Shown in pieces: positions 5,758-21,957 of a stretch of DNA of 64,000 nucleotides (position 1 is the first letter of the stretch; every line of letters begins with the position of its first letter). Made by a program: the position numbers and the translations under genes. The DNA is from Actinoplanes sp. TBRC 11911 (GTDB taxonomy: Bacteria > Actinomycetota > Actinomycetes > Mycobacteriales > Micromonosporaceae): positions 186,001 to 250,000 of the forward strand of contig NZ_JABBNC010000002.1 in assembly GCF_012933445.1 (NCBI RefSeq), given 5' to 3'. Below the pieces are notes generated by a model that was given only the letters and a program-made list of their open reading frames with translations, ran no database searches and was not told where the DNA came from.

Positions 5758-8700
5758 GTGAGCAAGCGCCCCACGACGGCGACCGGCGTCATGTCGCGTC
5801 TCCGTCGGCCGGCCGATCGGCTGCGAGACCTGCCGATCTGGTCGAAGCTCGGCTTGATCATGTTGGTACCGACCCTGGCGACGATCATCGTCGGCGTCAG
5901 CGGTCTGGTGGACCACATCAACGAAGCCAGCAACGCGGAGCGCGCCCGCACCCTTTCGGTGCTGTCGCAAGCTGCCGGTGGTCTGGTCGACCACTTGCAG
6001 AACGAACGAGCCTACGGCGTCATGATCGTCACTAACGACGACGACAGCCACAAGCCGATTCACGACGCCGCATTGAAGGCGTACCAGGACGAGAACGTCC
6101 AGGTCGACGCCGCCAAGCTGGCGTACTCGCAGCAGAAATCGGGCCTGGAGAACGTGCCCGAGAAGGTCGGCACGCTGCTCCTGCGTCTCGACCGCAACCT
6201 CGAGGACCTACCGGCGAAACGCAGTCAGATCGCCAAGGGTGGGTTGGACGAGGCCACCGTCGACGACACGTACTCGAAGCTCATCGACGACCTCCTCGCG
6301 GTACGGGACGCGTCGGCGCAGCTGGCCGACGACCCGTCGCTGAGCGACCACATGCGGGCGGTCGCCGCGGTGGCCCAGGCGAAGGAGTACATCGCCGAGC
6401 AGCGCGACGTCGGTCACCTCATCCTCAAAGAGGGTGACTTCAACAACGACATGCGCCGTCGGTTCCTGGTCACCGAGACGGGCTTCGAGCTGGCGGGCAC
6501 CACACTGCACACGGTCGGTACGGATGCCGAGATCCGCCTCTTCGACGGGATCTCGCTCACCCCGGACGCCCGCGCGGCAACGAACCTGACCACCCCGCTG
6601 AAGAACCTGGCGGGTCCGAACACCCACAACATCCCGTTCAACACGCAGGCGTGGGAAACGGCGATGCGGGGCTACAACACGCAGTTCCGCTCGGTCGAGG
6701 TCAAGATGGACGCGGACGACGTGGCGCAGGCCACGCAGCTCCGCAACGACGTGAACCGGCGAGTCTTCATCGAGACCAGCGTGCTGCTCGGCATGCTCCT
6801 GCTGGCCATCCTGTTCGCCTGGTTGGTCGCCCGGTCGATGGCCCGCTCGCTGCGCGAACTGCGCCAGGGTGCGCTTTCGGTCGCCCAGTACGGCCTGCCG
6901 CACGCGGTGAGCCGGCTGCGTGACCCGGCCCTGTCCACGTCGCTCACCCCGGCCCAGGTCGCCGACCAGATCGCCGAACCCCTACCGGTGCGAAGCCGGG
7001 ACGAGTTCGGGCAGGTGACCGAGGCGTTCAACGCGGTTCACCTCGAGGCGGTCCGCACCGCGGCCGAACAGGCCGCACTCCGTGCCTCCGTCGCGACGAT
7101 GTTCGTCAACCTCGCCCGTCGTTCCCAGATCCTGGTCGACCGTCTCATCGGTCACCTGGACCGTCTGGAGCGCGGCGAGGAAGACCCGGACCGTCTGGCC
7201 GAGCTCTTCCAGCTCGACCACCTGGCCACCCGAATGCGGCGTAACGACGAGAACCTCCTGGTCCTCGCCGGTGCCGACTCGACCCGCGTGCAGCGCGAGC
7301 CGGCCGCCCTGATCGACGTGCTCCGCGCCGCGCAGTCCGAGGTCGAGCACTACACCCGCATCGAGTTCGGCACGATCGACCGGGAGATCGAGGTGGCGGC
7401 GCACGCCGTCAACGACATGGTCCACCTGGTCGCCGAGCTCTTCGACAACGCGACGGCGTTCTCCCCGCCGAACTCGACGGTCATCGTCGAGGCCCGGCGG
7501 ATGGGCGACAGCGCGGTGCTGTCGGTCGAGGACCGCGGTATCGGCATCAGCCGTGAGCAGTTGCGCGACCTCAACGAGCGACTGGCCAACCCGCCCATGG
7601 TGGACGTGGCCGTCTCCCGGATGATGGGCCTGGTCGTGGTCGCCCGGCTGGCGAACCGGCACGGCGTCAAGGTCGAGCTCCGCCCGGCCGACACCGAACG
7701 CGGTACCGTCGCCGAGGTGTCACTGCCGGTGTCCGTCCTGCTCACCGGCGCCCTCACGGGTCCGGGGCAGCCGGGCCTCAACGGCAACGGCATGCCCGCG
7801 ATGCAGGGCGGCCGGCCCGGGTTCCCCGAGCCGCTCGCCCTGGAAAGCGGCAACGGCGGTGGTGGCTACCCGGGTGGTCGCCCCTTCGACCCGAACCCGC
7901 CGATGCCGTCCGGTGGCATGCTCGGCACGAACGGCCGGTCGGTGCCCGCGTGGTCCGATCTCACCGGCGCGCCGTCGTCGAACGGTTTCGGTGGCTCGAA
8001 CGGTTTCGGCGGTTCGAACGGCAACGGCAATGGGAACGGCAACGGCAACGGCTTCTACGGCCCACGCAGCAACGAGGCGATCCCGCCGCTGCCGTCCGGC
8101 CCGATGTCGCCCGCGCCGCAGGGCTTCGCCGGCCCGGACGGGCTGCCGCATCGCAACGGCGGCGAGGAGAACAACGGGTTCGGTGCCACGATCCCGCGCC
8201 AGCTCCCGTCCAACCCGGAGAGCCAGGGCCGTGGCCCGGCGATCCCGCCGGTCTCGGCGCCGCCGGTCCCGTCCAGCCCGCCGTACAGCGGCCGCCCGAT
8301 CTCGACGCCGCCCGGCGCCGAGCCGCCGGCCGCCGCCACTCCGGCACCCCCGGCCTGGCCGCCGGTCGCCGCGGAACGCGACCAGAACGGGACGCCACAC
8401 GTCCCGGAGAGTCTCGCCGCAGCGCTGGACATGACGGCCGAGCTGCCGCGATACCGGCCCGAGCGCAACGACCAGCGTCCGCAGGTCGAGCGCCCGACCA
8501 ACCCGCAGACCGCGCCGATCCCGTCATCGGCACCGCCGGTGTCCGGGACGCCGATGTCCGGGATGCCCGCCTCGGTCAACCCGCAGGTGGAGGCCCAGCG
8601 GGCCGCTGCGGCGGCGCGGGCGGCACACGAGCTGGCCGCGCACCAGGCGGCCGAGGCGCAGGCCACCGCGGCGGCACAGATCGCCGCCGCTCAGGCCGCC

Positions 8701-9294
8701 GCCCGGCAGCGCGACAACCAGGGCCAGTTCGCGGACGAGACGATGGAGCTGCCGATCTTCCGGGAGCTCGAGTCGGCGTGGTTCACCACCGGCCACCCGG
8801 CTGACCAGAAGCCGTCGAACGGCACCGCCGAGGAAGGCGTGACCGCGCAGCGGATCCCCACCGGGGAACCGATCCGCTCGGTCGGCGTTCCGCAGCAGGC
8901 GGTCTCGCCCGAGTCGCGCGACCTGAATCCGGCTACAGTGGGTGCCGGCGTGTCGAACGGTGTAGCGGCGGCAAACGGCACCAATGGCTCGAGCCCGTGG
9001 CAGACGGCTGCGGATGAGGGCTGGCAGGCGGCCCAGGCGGCTGCCGACAAGCCGGTCGACACCACTACCACGGCGGGTCTGCCCAAGCGCACTCCGATGG
9101 CGCAGCTCGTCCCCGGTGGTGTTGACCGGGGCGGTAATTCCGTCCAGCGCCGTACCCCCGAGGGTGTTCGCGGTCTGTTGTCCGCATACCACCGGGGTGT
9201 GCAGCGCGGTCGCGGCTCGGATCAATCGACCAACCCGGAGGGCACTCCGGGAGGGCAGCAGTCCTCGCAGGCTGGCAAGGAGCATGAGGCATGA
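5758..9294 (+). CDS. cvnA: Conservon sensor histidine kinase-like protein (CvnA type)
   Basis: This 1178-residue membrane protein begins at GTG 5758, preceded by AGGAGGA at 5744-5750. Order of parts: a TM helix near residues 25-50; an extracytoplasmic helical NIT-type sensor domain (about 55-335); TM2 near 342-362; a HAMP-like linker; a DHp-like helix ([10 protein letters not shown]); an HATPase domain with the N-box [15 protein letters not shown] near 557-571 and VEDRGIGIS near 591-599. After that comes a very long Pro/Gly/Asn/Ala-rich disordered region with a run of Asn-Gly repeats. The conserved tail (about 997-1155) contains [28 protein letters not shown] and [17 protein letters not shown]. 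No response regulator is adjacent. In Streptomyces conservons this protein works with the Roadblock, DUF742 and GTPase partners that follow here. Confidence 0.9.
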
Positions 9295-9695
9295 CATCAA
9301 CGCAGGATCTTGGTTGGCTCTTGGCCAACTTCGCCGACCGCGTTCCCGGAGTCGCACATGCGATCGCGGTCTCCGCGGACGGTCTTCTCCTGGCAGCTTC
9401 GCGGGATCTGCCGCGTGACCGCGCCGACCAGCTGGCGGCTATCGCCTCCGGCCTGGTCAGCCTGACCCAGGGTGCCGCACGGTGCTTCGAGGGTGGCGCG
9501 GTGCTGCAGACGGTCGTCGAGATGGACAATGGATTCCTATTCCTGATGTCCATCTCGGACGGTTCGTCGTTCGCGGTCCTCGCCGCACGGAGCTGTGACG
9601 TCGGGCAGGTGGGCTACGAGATGGCTCTCCTGGTGGACCGTGTCGGTGAGGCGCTGACCCCCGCCCCGCGTTCCGCGGCCGGGGTCCTCGGCTGA
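9291..9695 (+). CDS. cvnB: Roadblock/LC7 domain protein (CvnB type)
   Basis: This is a 134-residue single-domain Roadblock/LC7 protein. Such proteins act as GTPase co-factors or GAP-like partners of small Ras-like GTPases; in conservons CvnB is thought to pair with the GTPase CvnD. The sequence is typical: [43 protein letters not shown], and a C-terminal helix [15 protein letters not shown]. The start ATG overlaps the kinase stop (ATGA), so translation is coupled. Confidence 0.93.
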
Positions 9696-9779
9696 ACGGG
9701 CAGTTAGCCGGCTCGACCGGCTGCTGTCCAACGCATTGACAAAACAGACACTTCTATGGGTTCGAGGAAGGGGTGAGCG

Positions 9780-10163
9780 GTGACGATGCCCGAACGCGAT
9801 GAGCCGACCGGCGCGCTGGTCAGGCCGTACGCCGTAACCCGCGGTCGGACCCGGCCGAAGCTTGAGATAGCGCTGGAAGCGCTGGTCGAGACAACTGTGC
9901 GCGGCCGATCGGGCATCCGCGGCGGACAGGGTGGAAGCGAGCATCAGTACATCGCGGCGATGTGTGACGGCGGCCGAGTGCAGTCGCTCGCGGAAATCGC
10001 CGCACGCATGCAACTGCCGCTCGGTGTGGCACGTGTGATCGTCGCCGACATGGCCTCCGATGGCCTTGTCGCGGTGTACGAGCCCACCTCGCTGGAAGAC
10101 GAGACCGACGCGGTAGGCACGGAACTGCTGGAAAGGGTGCTGAGTGGACTTCGCAGGCTCTGA
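9780..10163 (+). CDS. cvnC: DUF742 protein (CvnC type)
   Basis: This 127-residue protein is the third conservon component. RPYAVTRGRTRPKLEIALEALVETT is the conserved N-terminal block of DUF742 (shown here in one piece of the domain around residues 13-37). A winged-helix-like segment follows (VQSLAEIAARMQLPLGVARVIV and DMASDGLVAVY), consistent with a MarR-like fold. GTG 9780 is used, with an AAGGGG-type site just upstream; an in-frame ATG at 9786 is an alternative. The gene overlaps the following GTPase by 20 nt. Its molecular role is not established; a bridging or regulatory role toward the kinase and GTPase is assumed. Confidence 0.9.
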   Translation: MTMPERDEPTGALVRPYAVTRGRTRPKLEIALEALVETTVRGRSGIRGGQGGSEHQYIAAMCDGGRVQSLAEIAARMQLPLGVARVIVADMASDGLVAVYEPTSLEDETDAVGTELLERVLSGLRRL

Positions 10164-10752
10164 CATGTCGCAACGTCCCGCTGCGGGACGCGTGACATCG
10201 GCGAAGATTGTCATCGCCGGTGGGTTCGGCGTCGGTAAGACGACGCTGGTCGGATCGGTCTCGGAGATCACCCCGCTGACCACCGAGGCCATCATGACCT
10301 CGGCTGGTGTGGGTGTCGACGACAACCGTCAGGTGCCGGGGAAGATGACGACCACCGTCGCCATGGACTTCGGCCGGATCAGCATCGACCGTGATCTCAT
10401 CCTGTACCTGTTCGGTACCCCCGGCCAGACGCGTTTCTGGTTCATGTGGGACGAACTGGTGCGGGGCGCCATCGGCGCAGTGGTCATGGTCGACACGCGT
10501 CGCCTCGCCGATTGCTTCGCTGCCATTGACTTCTTTGAACATCGCCGCCTCCCATACCTGGTGGCGATCAACTGCTTCGACGGCATGCAGTATCACAATG
10601 TCCAGGACGTCCGGGACGCTCTCGCGATCTCGACCGACGTCCCGGTGGTGAGCTGCGACGCCCGCAACCGTGAGTCGACGAAAAACGTCCTCATCTCGCT
10701 TGTCGAGTATGTGCTGACGATGCGTCGCTCGCGTGCGGTAGCGCCCGCCTGA
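10144..10752 (+). CDS. cvnD: Conservon small GTPase (CvnD type)
   Basis: This is a 202-residue Ras-like P-loop protein. Walker A GGFGVGKTT lies near residues 26-34. The switch/DxxG-equivalent region is LYLFGTPGQTRFWFMW. The usual NKxD motif is replaced by INCFDG, as in other conservon GTPases. It would act as a molecular switch downstream of the kinase/Roadblock complex. GTG 10144 lies inside cvnC; an internal ATG at 10165 is a possible alternative start. A strong hairpin at 10764-10793 ends the operon. No cytochrome P450 gene (cvnE of some conservons) follows. Confidence 0.92.
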   Translation: MDFAGSDMSQRPAAGRVTSAKIVIAGGFGVGKTTLVGSVSEITPLTTEAIMTSAGVGVDDNRQVPGKMTTTVAMDFGRISIDRDLILYLFGTPGQTRFWFMWDELVRGAIGAVVMVDTRRLADCFAAIDFFEHRRLPYLVAINCFDGMQYHNVQDVRDALAISTDVPVVSCDARNRESTKNVLISLVEYVLTMRRSRAVAPA

Positions 10753-10763
10753 CGATCGGTTGA

Positions 10764-10793
10764 AGCCCCGCTCCGCCGTGCCGGAGCGGGGCT
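10764..10793 (+). terminator. Hairpin terminator of the conservon operon
   Basis: A perfect 12-bp inverted repeat (arms 10764-10775 and 10782-10793, AGCCCCGCTCCG and its complement) with a 6-nt loop starts 11 nt after the cvnD stop. There is no T-run, which is common for actinobacterial terminators. Confidence 0.75.
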
Positions 10794-10830
10794 GAGCTAG
10801 CCGCGCTCGATCGCGCGTGCGCCGCTGAAA

Positions 10831-10897
10831 GTTGATGAGTTCAGGCTGCGGCCGACGACGGCTTCGCCGGCGGCGCCCGCAGCCTGAACTCATCAAC
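10831..10897. repeat. 21-bp perfect inverted repeat between convergent genes
   Basis: The arms 10831-10851 and 10877-10897 are exact complements (GTTGATGAGTTCAGGCTGCGG), separated by 25 bp. They lie in the 251-bp gap between cvnD (+) and the 752-residue gene (-), between two separate terminator hairpins. The arms are much less GC-rich than the surroundings. This could be a REP/MITE-like element or an extra bidirectional terminator; I saw no second copy in the window. Confidence 0.7.
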
Positions 10898-10935
10898 GCG
10901 GCAACGCGCTCCTCGCTGAATTGTCGTTACGTGGA

Positions 10936-10964
10936 AACGGCCGGGAGCGTTGCTCCCGGCCGTT
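10936..10964 (-). terminator. Hairpin terminator of the 752-residue gene
   Basis: A perfect 13-bp stem (10936-10948 and 10952-10964) with a 3-nt loop lies about 40 bp beyond the stop of the minus-strand gene that ends at 11004. On the plus strand it is followed by CTTT, so it may terminate in both directions. Confidence 0.7.
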
Positions 10965-11003
10965 CTTTACATGGCCGCCCGTGTCACCCGGCGGCCGGTA
11001 GGC

Positions 11004-13262
11004 TCAGCGGCCCCCGCCGTAGCCGGCGCCGCTGTTGCGGAAGTCGTCGGCCGGCTGGCCGTCGCGCGTGAAGTCCCAGCCGCCCGCTGCCTCACGGCCC
11101 GGGCGGCCGCCCATCGCGAAGCCGCCGATCTCCTGACCCCGCCGCCAGCCGCGGAAGTAACCCGTGGTGTGGGCGGCGATGCTGGCGGCGTCACGAACGA
11201 TGCGTAGCGGCCGCTCGTCGCGCATCGGGGCGCCGGGCACCAGGTTGGCCTGGGGCACCCGCTTCGGCAGCCCTGCGGCCGTCTCAGACGCCACCTCGGG
11301 GGTGGACGCCTTCTCCGCCGCCCGCCAGCCGCTGTCGTTCGGGTTGGCCCACTCCAGGTTGGTCGGCGCGTCGTCGGTGTGGCCGGTGAACCAGGCCGAG
11401 CGGGCCGCCGCGAAGATGAGCAGGTCGCCGTCGCTGCTGTCGGCCGGGACCGGCGGCGTGACGCTGCGTTCCAGCGCGGTGATCGTGGTGCCGGTGGGGG
11501 CCGGGGCGCTACCGCCTCGCCGGGCGCCGTTGCGGCGGCCGCCGCGCTCCTCGCCCTCGATCAGACGCAGTGCCGGCGGGTCGCTCACCGGCGGCAGGTC
11601 GGTCACCGTGGCGTCGAGGTTGGCGGCCAGCTGCGACTCGACCAGGCGCAGCGCGGGCGGCTCCTTCGGCATGTCCTGCCACGGCGGCTTCACCCGGCCG
11701 TCGGTGGGCGGCGAGCTCGTCGACGCGGCGGGCAGGTCGTCGCCGGCGCTGTTGAGCAGCGGCCAGTTCGCCCGGGAGCCGGGCTCGGCGGTCTCCGCCG
11801 GGCGCTGGGCCGGCATCGGCAGCGAGAAGTCCGTGGGGCTGCTCGGGTCCCCGGTGGACGGCGGCCGGGCCGGGGTGGACGGCCGCGGCGGGATCACCGT
11901 GCGCTGGCGCTCGGCGCGAGCGTTGTTGATCGCCGCGTTGGTGAGCGTGGCGCGGAACGGCTGACCGCTGTCGGCCGGGGTGAGCGGGCCGGCCGGGGAC
12001 GCCGGCGCGGCGGGCGGGGCCGAGGTGGGCGTCATCCGCGCGGCCGGCGCCGACGTCGGCGCCGGGGCGGGCCGTGAACCGGGTGTGATCGGTGTCATGC
12101 CCGGCGGGGGCGGCGGCACCGACACCGGGCGGTTGCCCGGTGCGGGCGCGCGGTTCGGGAAGGCGGCCGCGGCGGCCGGGACCACCGGCGGCGGCGCGAC
12201 CGGACGCGGCGCCGTGGGCGGTGGCGCGATCGGGTCGGGCGCCGCGGGCGGCGTGTTGAGCGGGTGCGGCGTCACCGGGCCGGCACCGGCCGTGGACGGC
12301 TCGGTGCGGCCGCGGCGGCCGAACGACTGGATGGGGGTGGGCTCGGCGCTCTTGCGGGCGGCACGACGGCCCACACCGGACGTCGACGGCGTGCTGCGGC
12401 TCGCGATCGTGCTGATCAGCGACGCACAGGCCGCGTCGCTGGCGCGGACCGCGGCGATCGCCTGCCGGACCGTCTCGGCCGCGGCCGGAGCCAGCGACTT
12501 GTTGACGCCGCCGCGGCGCGGCGACTCGCTGATCGCGACGTGCAGCGCGGTGACCGCGGCGATCAACTCGTCCTCGGTGCCGGCGCCGGCCCGGATCAGC
12601 TCGGTCGCCACGTCCTCGGCGACGCGCTCGGACGAGCCGCCGTGCGAGGTCAGCCGGCCCGGTTCGGGCAGCGCGTCCAGCACGGCCAGCGCCAGCGGGT
12701 GCGCGGGGTCGGGATAGGCCCGCAGGGCGGCGGGGTAGAGCTCGCGCAGCGTCTCGCGCAGCGCGGTGGCGGCCGCGTGCCGGCCACTGAGCAGGGCCAC
12801 GTGCGCGGCCAGGACCGGCTTGTAGCTCACCAGCTCACGCGGGACCGGCAGGTTGACCGCGCCGAGGGCGCCGGCCTGCAACGCGCGAGCCAGGCCGACC
12901 GCGCGACGGGCGGCCGGCGGGGCCTGCATCTCTTCGACGGAGTCGTCGTCGGCGAAGCGCTCGGCGAAGTCGTCGGTGGTGTCGTCGTCGGCCACCACCA
13001 GCGGGCGGCCGGCGGCGGTGAGCAACGAGGTGACTAGGTGGTCGTCGCTGTCGGCGGCCACCGCGGCGTCAGTGAACCCACTCGTCCGTTCCACGAGCAG
13101 CGAGCCGAACGCGGCATAACCAGCCGGATCGTCGCTGATCTCATGGACGCCGAGCAGCCGGCCTGCGTCGTCCACCACGGCGATGGTCAGTTGGGCGGCC
13201 GAGGCCGCACGCACCGATTCATCAGCCGACGCCAGACCGCAGTACACGCGCACGAGCGCCAC
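11004..13262 (-). CDS. Uncharacterised 752-residue protein: IS110-like N-terminus, conservon-kinase-like tail
   Basis: I do not recognise this protein as a named family. GTG 13262 follows a GGAGGA site. Residues 1-95 resemble the RuvC-like N-terminal fold of IS110 transposases (VYCGLAS, LTIAVVDDAGRLLGVHEI, DPAGYAAFGSLL, AAGRPLVVAD), but the first catalytic Asp position is Ala. Residues 100-310 are helical. Residues 310-610 are Pro/Ala-rich and probably disordered. The last 140 residues copy the tail of the conservon kinase at 5758-9294: LLIFAAARSAWFTG, W..A...GWRAAEKA, AGLPKRVPQANLVPG and a final YFRGWRRG. It lies on the opposite strand from the conservon, converging on it. It is probably cytoplasmic, as no TM or signal is seen. 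The shared tail suggests a common binding partner. Confidence 0.8.
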   Translation of the reverse strand: MALVRVYCGLASADESVRAASAAQLTIAVVDDAGRLLGVHEISDDPAGYAAFGSLLVERTSGFTDAAVAADSDDHLVTSLLTAAGRPLVVADDDTTDDFAERFADDDSVEEMQAPPAARRAVGLARALQAGALGAVNLPVPRELVSYKPVLAAHVALLSGRHAAATALRETLRELYPAALRAYPDPAHPLALAVLDALPEPGRLTSHGGSSERVAEDVATELIRAGAGTEDELIAAVTALHVAISESPRRGGVNKSLAPAAAETVRQAIAAVRASDAACASLISTIASRSTPSTSGVGRRAARKSAEPTPIQSFGRRGRTEPSTAGAGPVTPHPLNTPPAAPDPIAPPPTAPRPVAPPPVVPAAAAAFPNRAPAPGNRPVSVPPPPPGMTPITPGSRPAPAPTSAPAARMTPTSAPPAAPASPAGPLTPADSGQPFRATLTNAAINNARAERQRTVIPPRPSTPARPPSTGDPSSPTDFSLPMPAQRPAETAEPGSRANWPLLNSAGDDLPAASTSSPPTDGRVKPPWQDMPKEPPALRLVESQLAANLDATVTDLPPVSDPPALRLIEGEERGGRRNGARRGGSAPAPTGTTITALERSVTPPVPADSSDGDLLIFAAARSAWFTGHTDDAPTNLEWANPNDSGWRAAEKASTPEVASETAAGLPKRVPQANLVPGAPMRDERPLRIVRDAASIAAHTTGYFRGWRRGQEIGGFAMGGRPGREAAGGWDFTRDGQPADDFRNSGAGYGGGR

Positions 13263-13325
13263 GGCGTCGTCCTCCTCCCCGGGACTGCTGTATTAAGCCA
13301 AGCAATGATGGTCCCTGCTGAGGGG

Positions 13326-14198
13326 TCAGTCGCGCCAGTCCACAACGGCAGAGATCTTGCCAATTACCGAACGCCAGCCGAGGCTCGCCTGCTGTGCCCC
13401 GATCTTCTTCAACTTCCGGCGCCCGAAGAACCCGCCCATACCACCGCTTTCCGCGGACCTCAGGGACTCGTCCAGGTCATCGAGGGGCGAGCCCGCGTTC
13501 AGGGCCAGGATCACCGGCTTGAGCCGGAGTGCGTAACCCAGGTCCCGGGCGACCTCGCCCGCGGCGATGAGGAGCGGCAGGTCCCATGTGTCATGCCCGC
13601 CGCGCAGGTTCTCCACCACGAGGTCCAGCTCGTAGCGGTCGTCCGGCTGCGGGTCGATGTCGGTCGACTGTACCCGGTCGGCCACGGTGGCCCAGGAGTC
13701 GAGTTGTGCGAGGTCGTGCGGAGCACCCGAACGAATGAAGGAGACCAGCGACTCGGGTGTCTTGAACGCCAGCAGCTTGCCCTTGTGGCTGAGGAACATC
13801 GGCACCTCCTCGTCGGCCGCCGGATCTTCCTCCTCCTCGTCCTTTTCGTCCTCGAAGTCGGCCGGGTCGGGCTCGTCGGCGTCCGCCGTCTTCCCGTCCT
13901 TATCGGCCTCACCCTGCTCGAGCAGCGCCTGGAACTCCTCGTCGACGATGACCTCTTCCTCGTCGTCGTGGCGCGCGCCGCCCTTGCGGGCGTCGAACGG
14001 GTCTTCCTCCTCGGCCTCGATCTCCGTCGGCGTCAACTCGGAGGCCTTCCGATACGCACGCAGCGTCAGCCCGACGCCACCGGGGAGTGCGATCTCCACG
14101 GGCGCGATGCGAACCTCTTCCCACAGCGCGGGCCCGGAGAGCCCGGATGCGGACTGCTCGGGCGCGGACGCCTCGGGCTCGTCGGACTGGCTGGTCAC
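13326..14198 (-). CDS. Conserved hypothetical protein with acidic linker
   Basis: This 290-residue protein starts at GTG 14198, just after GGAGGTCACC. Residues 1-50 form a small beta-type segment (LWEEVRIAPVEIALPGGVGLTLRAY). Residues 55-130 are an extremely acidic low-complexity stretch with runs of Glu/Asp. Residues 130-290 are a folded region (MFLSHKGKLLAFKTPESLVSF, LAQLDSWATVADRV, YELDLVVENLRGG) ending in a basic helix and W-rich tail. No enzyme motif or TM is visible. Similar actinobacterial proteins are often mislabelled DNA primase; nothing here supports a primase. It is upstream of the 752-residue gene by 63 nt and may share its transcript. Confidence 0.75.
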   Translation of the reverse strand: MTSQSDEPEASAPEQSASGLSGPALWEEVRIAPVEIALPGGVGLTLRAYRKASELTPTEIEAEEEDPFDARKGGARHDDEEEVIVDEEFQALLEQGEADKDGKTADADEPDPADFEDEKDEEEEDPAADEEVPMFLSHKGKLLAFKTPESLVSFIRSGAPHDLAQLDSWATVADRVQSTDIDPQPDDRYELDLVVENLRGGHDTWDLPLLIAAGEVARDLGYALRLKPVILALNAGSPLDDLDESLRSAESGGMGGFFGRRKLKKIGAQQASLGWRSVIGKISAVVDWRD

Positions 14199-14268
14199 GG
14201 TGACCTCCGGGTTGATTCTGCCTGCGAAAACGATGAGTCTGACGACACACCCTAGTGGGCGAGCCTGG

Positions 14269-15271
14269 TCAGAAACCTTTCGGGTGCCAGACCGTCTTGG
14301 TCTCCAGAAGCGCGGTCATCGGCCGTACCCCGGGGTCGGCGGTGAAGTCCGGCACACCGGCCGCCGGGCGGATCACCCGCTTGAGTGTCCCCGAGGCGGA
14401 ACGCTCCAGGTCGGTGGCCAGATCGGTGTCGTCGAGGCCGGTCAGGTCGAGGGCGTTGACGTCGTCGTGCGAGGCCAGCCAGGGTGCGACCTCCGCGGAG
14501 TGTCCGGTCAGCACGTTCACCACGCCGGCCGGGACGTCGGAGGTGGCGAGGGCCTCGGCGAGCGTGATGGCGATCTGGGCGGCGGGTGTGATGACCACCA
14601 CGGTGTTGCCGGTGACGATCGCCGGCGCGATCACGCTGGCGAGGCCGAGCAGCGAGGCCGGCGCGGTCACCGCGACGACGCCGGTCGGCTCCGGCGCGGA
14701 GAGGTTGAAGAACGGCCCGGCCACCGGGTTCGCGTTGCCGGCGACCTGCGCGATCTTGTCGGACCAGCCCGCGTACCAGACCCAGCGGTCGATGGTGGCG
14801 TCCAGCTCGGCGGTGCTCACCCCGAGCGCTTCGAACTCGGCCCGGCGGGCCTCGATCATCTCGGCGATGCGATAGAGGACCTGACCCCGGTTGTACGCGG
14901 TGGCGCCCGCCCACTTGGACTGGGCCTTACGAGCCGCCACCACCGCGTCGCGGGCGTCTTTGCGGGACGCGAGGGCCGCGTTGTCGCCGTCCACCAGATA
15001 CGTCCGTCCTGATTCGCTGCGCGGGAACGCGCCGCCGATGTACAACTTGTACGTTTTGCGCACGGTCAGGCGTCCGGCCGGAACCGCGGCCGGCTCGTCC
15101 GGTTCCTGAGCCGGCTTCGCGGGCGGTGGCGGCGCCGGCACGTCGGCGGCCAGCACCGACCCCGGAGCGGCGGCGGCCCGGGCCCGCTTCGCGGCTTTCT
15201 TGGCAGGCCGGACTGACGCGTCCGCCTCCGGCTCGTCGGCCACGACCGAGGTGGCCACCGGCTTCGCTGAC

Positions 15272-18444: not shown

Positions 18445-21400
18445 ATGGGCTCCGTGCTGAGCGTCGTCGTGCCGATCTACAACGTCGCTCCGTACCTGGA
18501 GGAATGTCTCGCCTCGGTCGCGGCGCAGTACCACCGGCACCTAGAAGTGATCATGGTGGACGACGGCTCGACGGATGACAGCGGTGCGATCGCTGCCGCG
18601 TTCGCCGAACGGGACCGGCGGTTCATCCTGGTCACCCAGGCGAACGCCGGGCTGGGCGCGGCCCGTAACACCGGGACCAGGCACGCGACCGGTGACTATC
18701 TGATGTTCGTGGACAGCGACGACGTCCTGCCCCCGTACGCGGCGGAGTTGTTGATCTCCTCGATCGAGGCCACCGGGTCGGATTTCGCCTGCGGCAACGT
18801 GCTGCGGCTGACCAGCCGGGGCCTGCATCAGTCCGGGCTGCACAAGACGCCGTTCGCCACGACCAGGCTCGGCACGCACGTGAGCCGGCACTCCTCGCTG
18901 ATGGACGACCGCACCGCGTGGAACAAGGTGTTCCGGCGCTCCTTCTGGGACGCGCACGAGCTGGCCTTCCCCGAAGGGGTGCTCTACGAGGACATTCCGG
19001 TGACCGTCCCGGCGCACGTGCTGGCCAAGTCGGTGGATGTGCTGGACGTGCCGGTCTACTACTGGCGCGAGCGCGAGGGCGCGGAAAAGTCGATCACGCA
19101 GCGCCGCGGCGAGGTGCGTGGCTTCCTCGACCGTCTGGCCGGCGTCCGCGAGGTCAGCCGGTTCCTGGGCGAGCAACGCCAGCGTAAGCTCAAGCGGATC
19201 TACGACGGGTCCGTCCTCACCGGCGACCTGATGATCTTCATGCGCGAGCTGCCGCGAGCCGGCGACGACTTCCGGGAGGCGTTCCTCGACGGCTGCCACG
19301 AGTTCCTGGACACCGTCGACGCCAGGGTGTTCGACGAGTTGCCCGCCCAGCAGCGCGTGCTGTGGCAGCTGGTCCGCAAGCGGATGCTCGCCGAACTGCT
19401 GGAGATCGTTCCGACGATCCGGGCCCGGCACGGCATCGTCCGCAAGGGCCTGTCCCGCTACCACAACCTGATGTATCTCGACGACGACCTGCCGGAGCTG
19501 CCGAGGTCGCTGTTCGCCGCCGGCACCCCGCACCCGCGTACCAAGCTGCACGAGGCGTACTGGCGGCGTGGGAAGCTGCACCTGCGCGGCCACGCCTTCA
19601 TCCCGTCGCAGCCGGCCACGCACGCCTGGTCGACCACCCGGCTGATCTGGCTCAAGAGCGACGCGGGCGATCGCACCAAGCGCATCCCGCTGACCGCGCG
19701 AAAGTGCACCGACGCCACCGCCGAGCACGGCACCGCGTCCGTGTCGTACGACTGGTCCGGCTTCGCGGCCGAGATCGCCGCCGATCAGCTCCGCGGCCCG
19801 GACGGCACGTGGCGGGACGAGGTGTGGACGGTCCACATCGGCGTGCTCGGTCTCGGTCAGAAGAGCCGCGGGCCGTTCGAGGTGGGCGAGCACGCGAATC
19901 CGATCAAGCTGACCAGCCTCTATGTCGACCGGGACGTTCGCATCACCCCGGTGGTCTCGGACGGCCGTCTCCGGCTGCACGTGGAGCATGTCGGCGCCCG
20001 GGTCACCGGCGGCGGCGTGGACGGCGACTCGCTGGAGATCCACGGTCAGGTCACCCGTGCCGACCCGCGGCCCGAGACGGCCCGGCTGTCGCGTACGTCG
20101 GGGGTGGTCTGGGGCAGTTATCCGGTGCACCTGGACGGCGACCGCTTCTCCTTCCGGGTGCCGCTGGCCGACCTGCAGGCCCACGAGTATCACCGGCCGC
20201 TGCTGGTCGGCGAGCCGGGCGATCGCTGGGACGTCGAGCTGGCCCCGGGCGACGAGCACGCCACGCCGGTCCGGCTGGCCGTGGCCGGCGACTTCGCCTG
20301 GTCGCCGATCTACCTCGGCGGGCGCATGATCGGCATGCACGCGGACGGCAAGGGCCACCCGGTGCTCAGCGCGCAGCCGCCGGTTCCGGCGGTCACGTCG
20401 GTGACCGCCGACGGGACAACCTTCCGGGTGTCCGGCACGCTGCCGCCCGGCGGCTGGGCGCGCATGCGGACCGTGCTGCGGCTGGCCAACGGCCGGGAGC
20501 CGCGGGAGTTCCCGACCACTGTCGACGGCGACACCTGGACGGCGGTCGTCGATCCGCTGTCGGTGGAGTCGTTCGGCGACCGGATCCGGCTGCGGACCGG
20601 GACGTACAACCTGTTGTGCCGGGACGGCGACGGTCCGATCGGGCCGTTGCCGGCGTTCGAGGGCGGCCTGGGCGCCCTGCCGATGGATCTGCCCGCCGAC
20701 CCGGGACGCGTCACGCTGGAGTGGCTCTTCGACGACCGGGTGGTGCTGCGCGTGCGCTCGGCGCTGAAGAACAACGAGCGCGGCAAGTACTTCGGCGCCC
20801 GCAACCGCGAGGAGCTCTACCCCGCACTGCGGCGGGAGCCGCTGCGCGATGCCGTCCTGTACAACAGCTTCACCGGCCGCCAATACTCGGACAGCCCGCG
20901 CGCCGTGCATCGGGAACTGGTCGCCCGGGGCGTGCCGCTCGAGCACATCTGGGCGGTCGTCGACGGTCAGGCGGCGATCCCGCCGACCGCCCGGTCCGTG
21001 GGGCTGTGGCAGCGCGACTGGTACGAAGCGCTCGCCACCAGCCGTTACATCGTGACCAACCAGCACCTGCCGGCGTGGTTCCGGCCCCGCGACGGCCAGG
21101 TGGTGGTGCAGACCTGGCACGGCACCCCGCTCAAGCGCATCGGTTTCGACATCGAGAACCTTCAGTTCGCCGACAAGAAGTACTTCGAAAAACTCGAGGT
21201 CGAGGCCAAGACCTGGACGCATCTGGTGTCGCCGAACCGCTTCAGCACGCCGATCCTCCAGCGCGCGTTCCGCTACGAGGGACGGATGCTGGAGACCGGT
21301 TACCCGCGCAACGACATCCTGTTCGCCGGCGGCGACCGGCGCGAGGCCATCGTTGCCGACGTCCGCCGGCGCCTCGCGCTGCCGGCGGGCAAGAAGGTGA

Positions 21401-21957
21401 TCCTGTACGCCCCGACCTGGCGCGACGACGACTACTACCGGGGCGGCGCCTACAAGATCGCGATGATGCTCGACCTGGAGGCGGCCCGCGAGCGCTTGGG
21501 AAGCGACCACGTGCTGCTGGTGCGCCGCCACCCCAACGTGGTCGACGACATCCCCGGTGCGGGCAACGGCTTCGTGTACGACGTCGGGGCCTACCCGGAC
21601 ATGGCCGACCTGCTGGCGATCGCCGACGTGCTGATCACCGACTACTCCTCGGTGATGTTCGACTTCGCCGTCACCGGCCGCCCGATGCTGTTCTTCACCT
21701 ACGACCTGGCCCACTACCGGGACAAGCTGCGCGGCTTCTACTTCGACTTCGAGGCCGAGGCGCCCGGGCCGCTGCTGAGCACCTCGGATCAGGTGATCGA
21801 CGCGATCGGCGACCTGGAGCCGGTGGCCGAGGCGTACGCGGACCGGTACAAGGCGTTCGCCGAGCGGGCCGGCGACCTCGACGACGGTCATGCCGCCGAC
21901 CGGGTCATCGAGGCCATGCTGGAGGCGGGCACGAAAGGGACGACCGGTGCTGCGTAA
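18445..21957 (+). CDS. Bifunctional GT2 glycosyltransferase / TagF-type glycerophosphotransferase
   Basis: This 1170-residue fusion likely builds a teichoic-acid-like wall polymer. Residues 1-270 are a GT2 (GT-A) domain: SVVVPIYNVAPYLEECLASV at the start, VDDGSTDDS, and the metal-binding DSDD. Residues 300-770 are a long, beta-rich linker I do not recognise. Residues 780-1160 are a CDP-glycerol:glycerophosphotransferase domain: QTWHGTPLKRIG near 889, YAPTWRDD near 989, TDYSSVMFDFA near 1065. ATG 18445 follows a GGGAGGG site. It is the first of a run of wall/glycan genes and overlaps the next gene by 11 nt. Confidence 0.9.
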   Translation: MGSVLSVVVPIYNVAPYLEECLASVAAQYHRHLEVIMVDDGSTDDSGAIAAAFAERDRRFILVTQANAGLGAARNTGTRHATGDYLMFVDSDDVLPPYAAELLISSIEATGSDFACGNVLRLTSRGLHQSGLHKTPFATTRLGTHVSRHSSLMDDRTAWNKVFRRSFWDAHELAFPEGVLYEDIPVTVPAHVLAKSVDVLDVPVYYWREREGAEKSITQRRGEVRGFLDRLAGVREVSRFLGEQRQRKLKRIYDGSVLTGDLMIFMRELPRAGDDFREAFLDGCHEFLDTVDARVFDELPAQQRVLWQLVRKRMLAELLEIVPTIRARHGIVRKGLSRYHNLMYLDDDLPELPRSLFAAGTPHPRTKLHEAYWRRGKLHLRGHAFIPSQPATHAWSTTRLIWLKSDAGDRTKRIPLTARKCTDATAEHGTASVSYDWSGFAAEIAADQLRGPDGTWRDEVWTVHIGVLGLGQKSRGPFEVGEHANPIKLTSLYVDRDVRITPVVSDGRLRLHVEHVGARVTGGGVDGDSLEIHGQVTRADPRPETARLSRTSGVVWGSYPVHLDGDRFSFRVPLADLQAHEYHRPLLVGEPGDRWDVELAPGDEHATPVRLAVAGDFAWSPIYLGGRMIGMHADGKGHPVLSAQPPVPAVTSVTADGTTFRVSGTLPPGGWARMRTVLRLANGREPREFPTTVDGDTWTAVVDPLSVESFGDRIRLRTGTYNLLCRDGDGPIGPLPAFEGGLGALPMDLPADPGRVTLEWLFDDRVVLRVRSALKNNERGKYFGARNREELYPALRREPLRDAVLYNSFTGRQYSDSPRAVHRELVARGVPLEHIWAVVDGQAAIPPTARSVGLWQRDWYEALATSRYIVTNQHLPAWFRPRDGQVVVQTWHGTPLKRIGFDIENLQFADKKYFEKLEVEAKTWTHLVSPNRFSTPILQRAFRYEGRMLETGYPRNDILFAGGDRREAIVADVRRRLALPAGKKVILYAPTWRDDDYYRGGAYKIAMMLDLEAARERLGSDHVLLVRRHPNVVDDIPGAGNGFVYDVGAYPDMADLLAIADVLITDYSSVMFDFAVTGRPMLFFTYDLAHYRDKLRGFYFDFEAEAPGPLLSTSDQVIDAIGDLEPVAEAYADRYKAFAERAGDLDDGHAADRVIEAMLEAGTKGTTGAA

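Follow-up and report, generated by a model that had tools for sequence, protein, structure and literature searches.

Signal input to the G protein systems of actinobacteria is described, in the available text of one source, as largely unexplored (PMC13343842). Two accessory proteins of conservons appear in the same portion of that source, CvnE, a P450, and CvnF, a GAF protein; both accompany overwhelmingly CvnA kinases that lack a sensory domain. The CvnB homologue MfpD is, according to the accessible parts of two papers, the GTPase-activating protein (GAP) for its conservon GTPase (PMC9769811; PMC13343842). Among IS110 recombinases, IS621 is reported in the accessible sections of its description to consist of a RuvC domain (residues 1–122), a dimerising coiled coil (residues 123–188) and a Tnp domain with Ser241 (PMC11208158), and Nop5 is presented, in the text available, as an inactive RuvC that recruits a protein (PMC12045711). 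Here we analyze F, a gene within a 64,000-nucleotide stretch of Actinoplanes sp. TBRC 11911 (contig NZ_JABBNC010000002.1, positions 186,001–250,000; hereafter the window, in whose own numbering coordinates are given), the product of which combines a dead IS110 domain with a C-terminal tail homologous to that of CvnA kinases. The reading that fits F best is that of a third type of conservon accessory, not described before, in which the dead IS110 domain would be a platform holding out a CvnA-type tail for a Roadblock protein.

Architecture of F and homology of its tail to that of CvnA

F is encoded at 11004–13262 of the minus strand by one uninterrupted frame of 752 residues, exactly as the preliminary description of this DNA had placed it. 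The window protein yielded no Pfam or NCBIfam match at E ≤ 10. Of 60 F sequences, 55 were aligned; three were dropped because contig ends cut them (L011, L012 and L047) and two for broken frames (L019 and L027). Conserved parts of this alignment are the N-terminal domain (N-domain) and residues 611–735, and the Pro-rich middle varies. The N-domain comprises a RuvC-like domain of RNase H fold whose catalytic residues are lost (residues 1–139; 12846–13262), recognized by VIA-align, hhalign and the catalytic columns, and a long-helix coiled-coil region as in IS110 and Nop proteins (residues 140–290; 12393–12845), assigned from an AlphaFold2 (AF2) model and VIA-align. A variable Pro-rich linker follows (residues 291–605; 11448–12392), identified by its conservation, by its ratio of nonsynonymous to synonymous substitution rates (dN/dS) and by its counterpart in the model of a divergent F, which is of low confidence and unstructured. 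Residues 611–735 (11058–11432), delimited by profiles, conservation and dN/dS, form the CvnA-type tail with the blocks IF..SAWF, W..GW.AA, GLPKR.P.A.LVPG and GYFRGW.RG.

The tails of F and CvnA are homologous. In the window's CvnA, the tail contains a first block of 12 residues (8749–8784, plus strand; BLASTP and sequence) and a second block running from W..GW.AA to RGVQRGR (8998–9213, plus strand), which BLASTP and hhalign identify as homologous to F residues 638–710. BLASTP aligned the two window proteins over 73 residues with 38% identity (E = 2e-9), and hhalign compared 26 F tails with 21 CvnA tails at a probability of 99.2% (E = 7.7e-20). An F-tail profile made from 55 other F matched 71 of 6,749 open reading frames (ORFs) from 40 neighbourhoods, 40 of them F and 31 CvnA, and nothing else. 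The same 71 ORFs were recovered by a CvnA-tail profile, the alignment of which already held 20 of the matched CvnA tails but no F. Both profiles were also run on 13,498 ORFs that had been reversed or shuffled and matched none at E ≤ 0.01, which rules out a match by chance or low complexity. The search of F with a profile of CvnA-type tails that the preliminary description had proposed thus gave a positive result. In a plasmid collection, the sole record matched was a Nonomuraea CvnA tail (E = 1e-6). The tails had also been said to agree in order and spacing. The order of the blocks does agree, and the spacing does so from W..GW onward; before that point it does not, the distance from the end of the IF..SAWF block to the Trp of W..GW being 13 residues in F and 72 in CvnA.

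A tail tree of few columns places the F tails in one clade (support 100/99) that excludes the tails of the neighbouring kinases; it covers those 38 of the 40 F tails and 24 of the 31 neighbouring CvnA tails that fitted the cutting pattern, and omits five survey loci. The mean identity of F tails is 0.358 to neighbouring CvnA tails and 0.354 to other CvnA tails. The separate clade and the equal identities rule out that F took its tail recently from the kinase next to it, and the single clade points to one old acquisition.

Divergent F genes are followed by a Roadblock gene of their own

In 19 of 20 divergent neighbourhoods (L143–L161; not in L142), a second Roadblock gene lies directly behind F on its own strand. 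The distance from the F stop to the first matched Roadblock residue ranges from −3 to +19 bp in 18 loci and is 119 bp in one, and such short distances suggest an arrangement of coupled genes. F followed by Roadblock thus parallels CvnA followed by CvnB. The F-linked Roadblock proteins are 38–44% identical to the CvnB of the window, and Pfam Robl_LC7 was found in all three that were scanned. On the strand of divergent F, the Roadblock gene is the only such companion detected; no DUF742 or GTPase homologue was found beside it. In a FastTree phylogeny (no support values) the F-linked Roadblock proteins group apart, and none of the eight Robl_LC7 matches of the window's genome, seven of which exceed the cut-off, falls within their group.

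Where this gene is absent, F carries a nearly invariant C-terminal extension, EIGG..GGRPGRE..GGWDF.R, which in the window occupies residues 711–733 (11064–11132, minus strand). It is found in L001–L059, L142, L162–L181 and L232–L246. Gene and extension were scored in the 107 of 114 loci that have a tail and room downstream; the F frame shows no tail in L011, L012, L019, L027, L047 and L238, and in L040 less than 600 bp lie downstream. Nineteen loci have the gene and no extension, and 88 have the extension and no gene, 87 by the pattern and one (L242) reading GGWEF. A tree of F and IS110 proteins, which carries a long-branch warning from the tool, has its midpoint root on the IS110 branch. In this tree the 37 sampled F that lack the gene fall into one group (98/92), and a gene-bearing locus branches first. 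By this topology the F-Roadblock pair looks ancestral and would have been lost once.

The N-domain of F is an inactivated IS110 domain

The preliminary description had seen in the N-terminus of F an IS110 RuvC-type domain whose first catalytic Asp is replaced, and had proposed a domesticated recombinase fold. Both points are supported, the former having been understated. An F N-domain profile matched at least 17 of 296 class genomes, three of them of the family of F and with F; matches in the 14 others were mostly transposase-sized IS110 ORFs, the best (1.1e-17) being to a 413-residue transposase ORF. One genome, G059, has three identical copies of an IS110-type transposase that is a relative of the F N-domain (L074, L081 and L082; E = 8e-7). 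Aligned by hhalign to eight IS110 proteins, the N-domain scored a probability of 98.4% (E = 6.7e-15); this IS110 alignment (A5) consists of eight ORFs, L080 having been excluded as not IS110-like and others as truncated or copies. Pfam DEDD_Tnp_IS110 (PF01548) matched weakly in 12 of 60 N-domains (best 0.004) and in 6 of 18 full-length divergent F (best 9.1e-10). Transposase_20 (PF02371), the Tnp domain with the catalytic Ser, was found in none of these 18 nor in the window F, as against eight of eight IS110 proteins.

The AF2 model of the window N-domain has a mean predicted local distance difference test score (pLDDT) of 79, and residues 11–250 of a divergent F were modelled mostly above 90. 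The structural check against the IS110 DEDD fold called for by the preliminary description gave a positive answer: with the RuvC part of the window F, ISCro4 and IS621 lead the VIA-align list (ISCro4: Z = 11.5, root-mean-square deviation (rmsd) 2.8, 118 residues), as they do with that of the divergent F (Z = 13.7, rmsd 2.5, 109 residues). The helical part aligns with the Nop5/56/58 coiled coil at Z of about 10–12, which is weaker evidence because the region is helical. Foldseek E-values were modest (best 1.4e-3), and with the second model no IS110 chain was among the best 50 Foldseek matches listed, though IS110 chains head the VIA-align list. A search of profile A1 against PDB sequences gave only weak sigma-54 matches.

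None of 87 F has Asp at the first catalytic position, which is Asp in all 10 IS110 proteins compared. All four catalytic columns read D/E/D/D in the ten IS110 proteins; some F retain an acidic residue at another column, and since none of the 87 has the first Asp, none has the DEDD tetrad. F thus retains the RuvC-like fold and the coiled coil of IS110 and lacks the Tnp domain. The genome of the window gave no PF01548 match, which rules out that F was domesticated from an element still residing there.

F is near-universal in its family

Relatives of F were collected at 59 loci of named genomes, for example of Actinoplanes, Paractinoplanes, Micromonospora, Plantactinospora, Hamadaea and Catellatospora; further F loci came from other genomes of the same family. 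F is present in 197 of 200 genomes of this family, a count that rests on the N-domain, the tail having been examined in only part of the 171 genomes that matched it at E ≤ 1e-20. Each of these 171 has a single match except G366 and G368, which have two. Among the other 29, 20 were rechecked and 15 proved positive; of the last 14 (five from those 20 and nine further genomes), 11 have N-domain and tail, G406 has a fragment, and G332 and G456 have no F. Outside the family, none among the matches listed covers both N-domain and tail (394 class genomes, queried with full-length divergent F, three candidates per genome).

F is under purifying selection. By the Nei-Gojobori method, dN/dS in six orthologue pairs is 0.15–0.37 for the N-domain, 0.12–0.25 for the tail and 0.35–0.55 for the linker, which rules out a pseudogene. 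With nearly always one copy per genome and conserved neighbours, F shows no IS110-like mobility.

Occurrence of the tail across the class

A combined tail profile found matches in at least 111 of 246 class genomes; the class searches scored 3, 8 or 22 candidates per genome. We inspected 42 survey loci, representing 40 distinct places. In 29 a kinase domain goes with the tail (25 in the same ORF, four in an overlapping kinase ORF of another frame), and two are F. The other 11 comprise six that are cut at 3.2 kb (L197, L198, L202, L206, L208 and L211), L200 and L229 (one place), L220 and L223 at contig edges, and L224. A Roadblock gene is present in 39 of the 42, the exceptions being the two F loci and L220, a tail ORF that begins at a contig end and has no Roadblock gene within the 5 kb fetched. 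At L224:4440–4949 a short tail-only ORF precedes a Robl_LC7 gene; the upstream ORFs scanned gave a squalene-hopene cyclase match and no kinase domain, and the locus is a possible kinase-free conservon. It is the only survey locus to resemble a stand-alone tail. On the loci inspected, the "portable" of the preliminary description goes too far: the tail sits with a kinase in 29 of 42, in F in two and apparently alone in one, and most of the others are cut.

The conservon and other neighbours of F

The conservon of the window lies on the plus strand. CvnA (5758–9294) is a kinase with NIT, HAMP and HATPase_c domains by Pfam; its frame is open from 5542, so that the start at 5758 is one choice among others. 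It is followed by CvnB, a Roadblock/LC7 protein and the proposed docking partner (9291–9695; Pfam, 8.8e-23), CvnC (9780–10163; DUF742 by Pfam) and CvnD, a small GTPase of the Pfam ATP_bind_1 family (10144–10752). Of the conservon proteins here CvnB is conserved best, with a median best-segment identity of 100% (52 loci) compared to 70% for CvnA (51 loci), and such near-invariance is as expected of a shared hub. The CvnA tail also occurs in a second conservon of the same genome (L061, G000:C32:25700–25936), the CvnB of which shares 78% identity with that of the window.

The co-occurrence of F with conservons that the preliminary description had asked for is seen in all 87 main-clade loci that have 1.9 kb or more of sequence downstream of F, where a CvnB gene is nearby, and in 10 of 19 divergent loci. 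In every locus where strands are shown, F and the conservon are encoded on opposite strands. A homologue of the upstream gene, U, lies within the sequence fetched around F in 97 of 99 loci. Genes for an aldehyde dehydrogenase, deoC and adenosine deaminase also tend to remain near F. Because these flanking housekeeping genes are conserved too, co-localization alone is weak evidence.

Two further genes of the window were noted. An acidic protein, the product of U, is encoded at 13326–14315 on the minus strand, 63 bp upstream of F; its 13326–14198 frame has no Pfam match, and it may resemble the Rv3311-type gene near add. On the plus strand, 18445–21957 encodes a large protein in which CDP-glycerol glycerophosphotransferase and family-2 glycosyltransferase domains were recognized, together with a TarS-linker match that is weak and below the cut-off; it is probably an enzyme of the wall teichoic acid type.

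Discussion

We propose that the tail of F docks on a Roadblock protein of the CvnB type, a reading that gene order and tail homology make probable. The tail is common to CvnA, F and the short ORF of L224, which precede a Roadblock gene (F in divergent lineages), and a Roadblock-docking tail explains this best; as divergent F carry a Roadblock gene of their own, the likely partner is narrowed to that protein. On this proposal an IS110 recombinase would have become an accessory by keeping its RuvC-like fold and coiled coil and losing its active site, its near-neutral charge and its Tnp domain. The N-terminal part would most likely serve as a dimeric platform, or else as a sensor of some input, and the long Pro-rich linker would hold out the CvnA-type tail. 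Docking would bring F to the kind of protein that acts as GAP of the conservon GTPase, and could thereby affect the GTPase. In divergent lineages the partner would be the Roadblock protein whose gene lies directly behind that of F. In the window clade the F-linked gene is gone, the extension is present and the only Roadblock protein encoded near F is CvnB, which F would probably use and share with CvnA.

Several observations weigh against this proposal. A single loss of the Roadblock gene would mean that the mutual exclusion of gene and extension reflects few events and not 107; some of the 107 loci may moreover be one species met twice, and the 20 divergent loci were chosen for low profile scores and are related to one another. 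Adjacency of kinase tail and Roadblock gene is not independent evidence, since CvnA normally precedes CvnB. At L227:241–3191 a DUF742 gene comes immediately after a tail-bearing NIT-HATPase kinase (241–2817), and no Roadblock gene was detected in between; this order would also fit docking on CvnC and speaks against a strict Roadblock rule. In nine of 19 divergent loci no conservon CvnB was found in the approximately 20 kb fetched, and in the window F is convergent to the conservon and outside its operon. Linkage of F and conservon is partly conserved chromosome order, and synteny could explain it.

It is fairly unlikely, in our estimation, that the tail is instead a module for the membrane surface or for another partner, such as the kinase itself, CvnC or CvnD. 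The last segment of both tails is rich in Arg and is predicted as a low-confidence helix in the divergent F model, CvnC and CvnD accompany CvnB so that gene order separates the three poorly, and the kinase of L227 stands before DUF742. Invariance is, however, not confined to the last segment and extends to several other blocks of the tail, and the companion of divergent F is a Roadblock gene without DUF742 or GTPase homologue. An antagonistic F, whose tail would be a decoy titrating CvnB away from CvnA and whose dead IS110 domain would merely be a dimeric scaffold, is an unlikely alternative too. It would account for homologous tails and a nearly invariant CvnB, and as the window clade no longer has the F-specific Roadblock gene, CvnB would there have to serve F as well. 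Against it, the Roadblock gene of F in 19 divergent loci indicates that competition with CvnA was probably not its first role, and F tails, as a separate clade, are no mimic of the neighbouring kinase tail.

That F still binds RNA or DNA through its coiled coil and RuvC fold, and so couples nucleic acid to G protein signalling, we consider improbable. Both elements are retained, the coiled coil being of the Nop type, and such regions contact RNA or an RNA/DNA duplex in IS110, TIGR-Tas and box C/D proteins, according to the available portion of one paper (PMC12045711). Yet the N-domain is strongly acidic (mean net charge over 240 residues −17.6 for 60 F and −11.6 for 25 divergent F, compared to +1.0 for eight IS110 proteins), which argues against nucleic-acid binding. 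In addition, the Tnp part is missing, the gap upstream of F is just 63 bp, and positions 9000–15000 of the window gave no Rfam match, although Rfam may hold no bridge RNA model. A decaying transposase remnant with a low-complexity chance match in its tail, as the Pro/Ala-rich linker and the lack of Pfam or NCBIfam matches in the window protein might suggest, is refuted by a constrained (dN/dS well below 1), near-universal gene whose tail profiles matched no decoy.

The docking proposal can be carried further, into a tentative scheme that seems rather doubtful as a whole. F and its Roadblock partner might constitute a kinase-free conservon front end, in which a dead bridge-recombinase dimer would replace the sensor kinase and supply a bacterial Ras-like GTPase circuit with a new input, perhaps a cell-cycle cue or a nucleic acid; it would have been fixed once at the root of the family and later rewired onto the neighbouring CvnB after loss of the Roadblock gene.

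In the open-access literature searched we found no description of F, of the CvnA tail, of their pairing or of an IS110 domain as a signalling protein, and the term IS110 does not occur in the main text of a review on recruited mobile elements (PMC8987985). New here are the own-strand pair of F and Roadblock genes in divergent loci and the extension where that gene is gone. The use of the CvnA C-terminal tail as a family criterion was likewise established in this analysis, no published criterion having been found. With the tail grafted by nature on an unrelated domain, in some lineages together with a Roadblock gene, F is a natural tool for asking what the tail binds.

Comparison with the systems closest to F brings out what is shared and what is not. 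Like the IS110 recombinases IS621 and ISCro4, to which it is related in sequence, F has a RuvC-like RNase H fold followed by a coiled coil; unlike them, it has lost the DEDD tetrad, lacks the Tnp domain with the catalytic Ser, occurs nearly always once per genome, is acidic and bears a CvnA-type tail. Piv of Moraxella is also a domesticated IS110 relative, yet it is an active DNA invertase. With CvnA kinases F shares the homologous tail behind a long Pro-rich region and, in divergent loci, the Roadblock gene next to it, and it differs in having a dead IS110 domain in place of NIT, HAMP and HATPase, none of which matched in the window F or in 18 divergent F. CvnE and CvnF resemble F as extra proteins linked to a conservon. 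The fold of F is unrelated to theirs (no GAF or P450 match by Pfam in the window F, the F N-domains or 18 divergent F), its gene lies outside the operon here, it carries a kinase tail, and the neighbouring CvnA has a NIT domain. Nop5, Nop56 and Nop58 of box C/D ribonucleoproteins likewise combine an inactive RuvC-like domain with a coiled coil, which in Nop, going by the accessible text, serves as a protein platform. F has no Nop domain match in Pfam, ends in a bacterial signalling tail and has its sequence relatives among IS110 proteins. As an IS110 domain turned signalling protein that is near-universal in its bacterial family, F would parallel the inactive RuvC platform of the Nop proteins.

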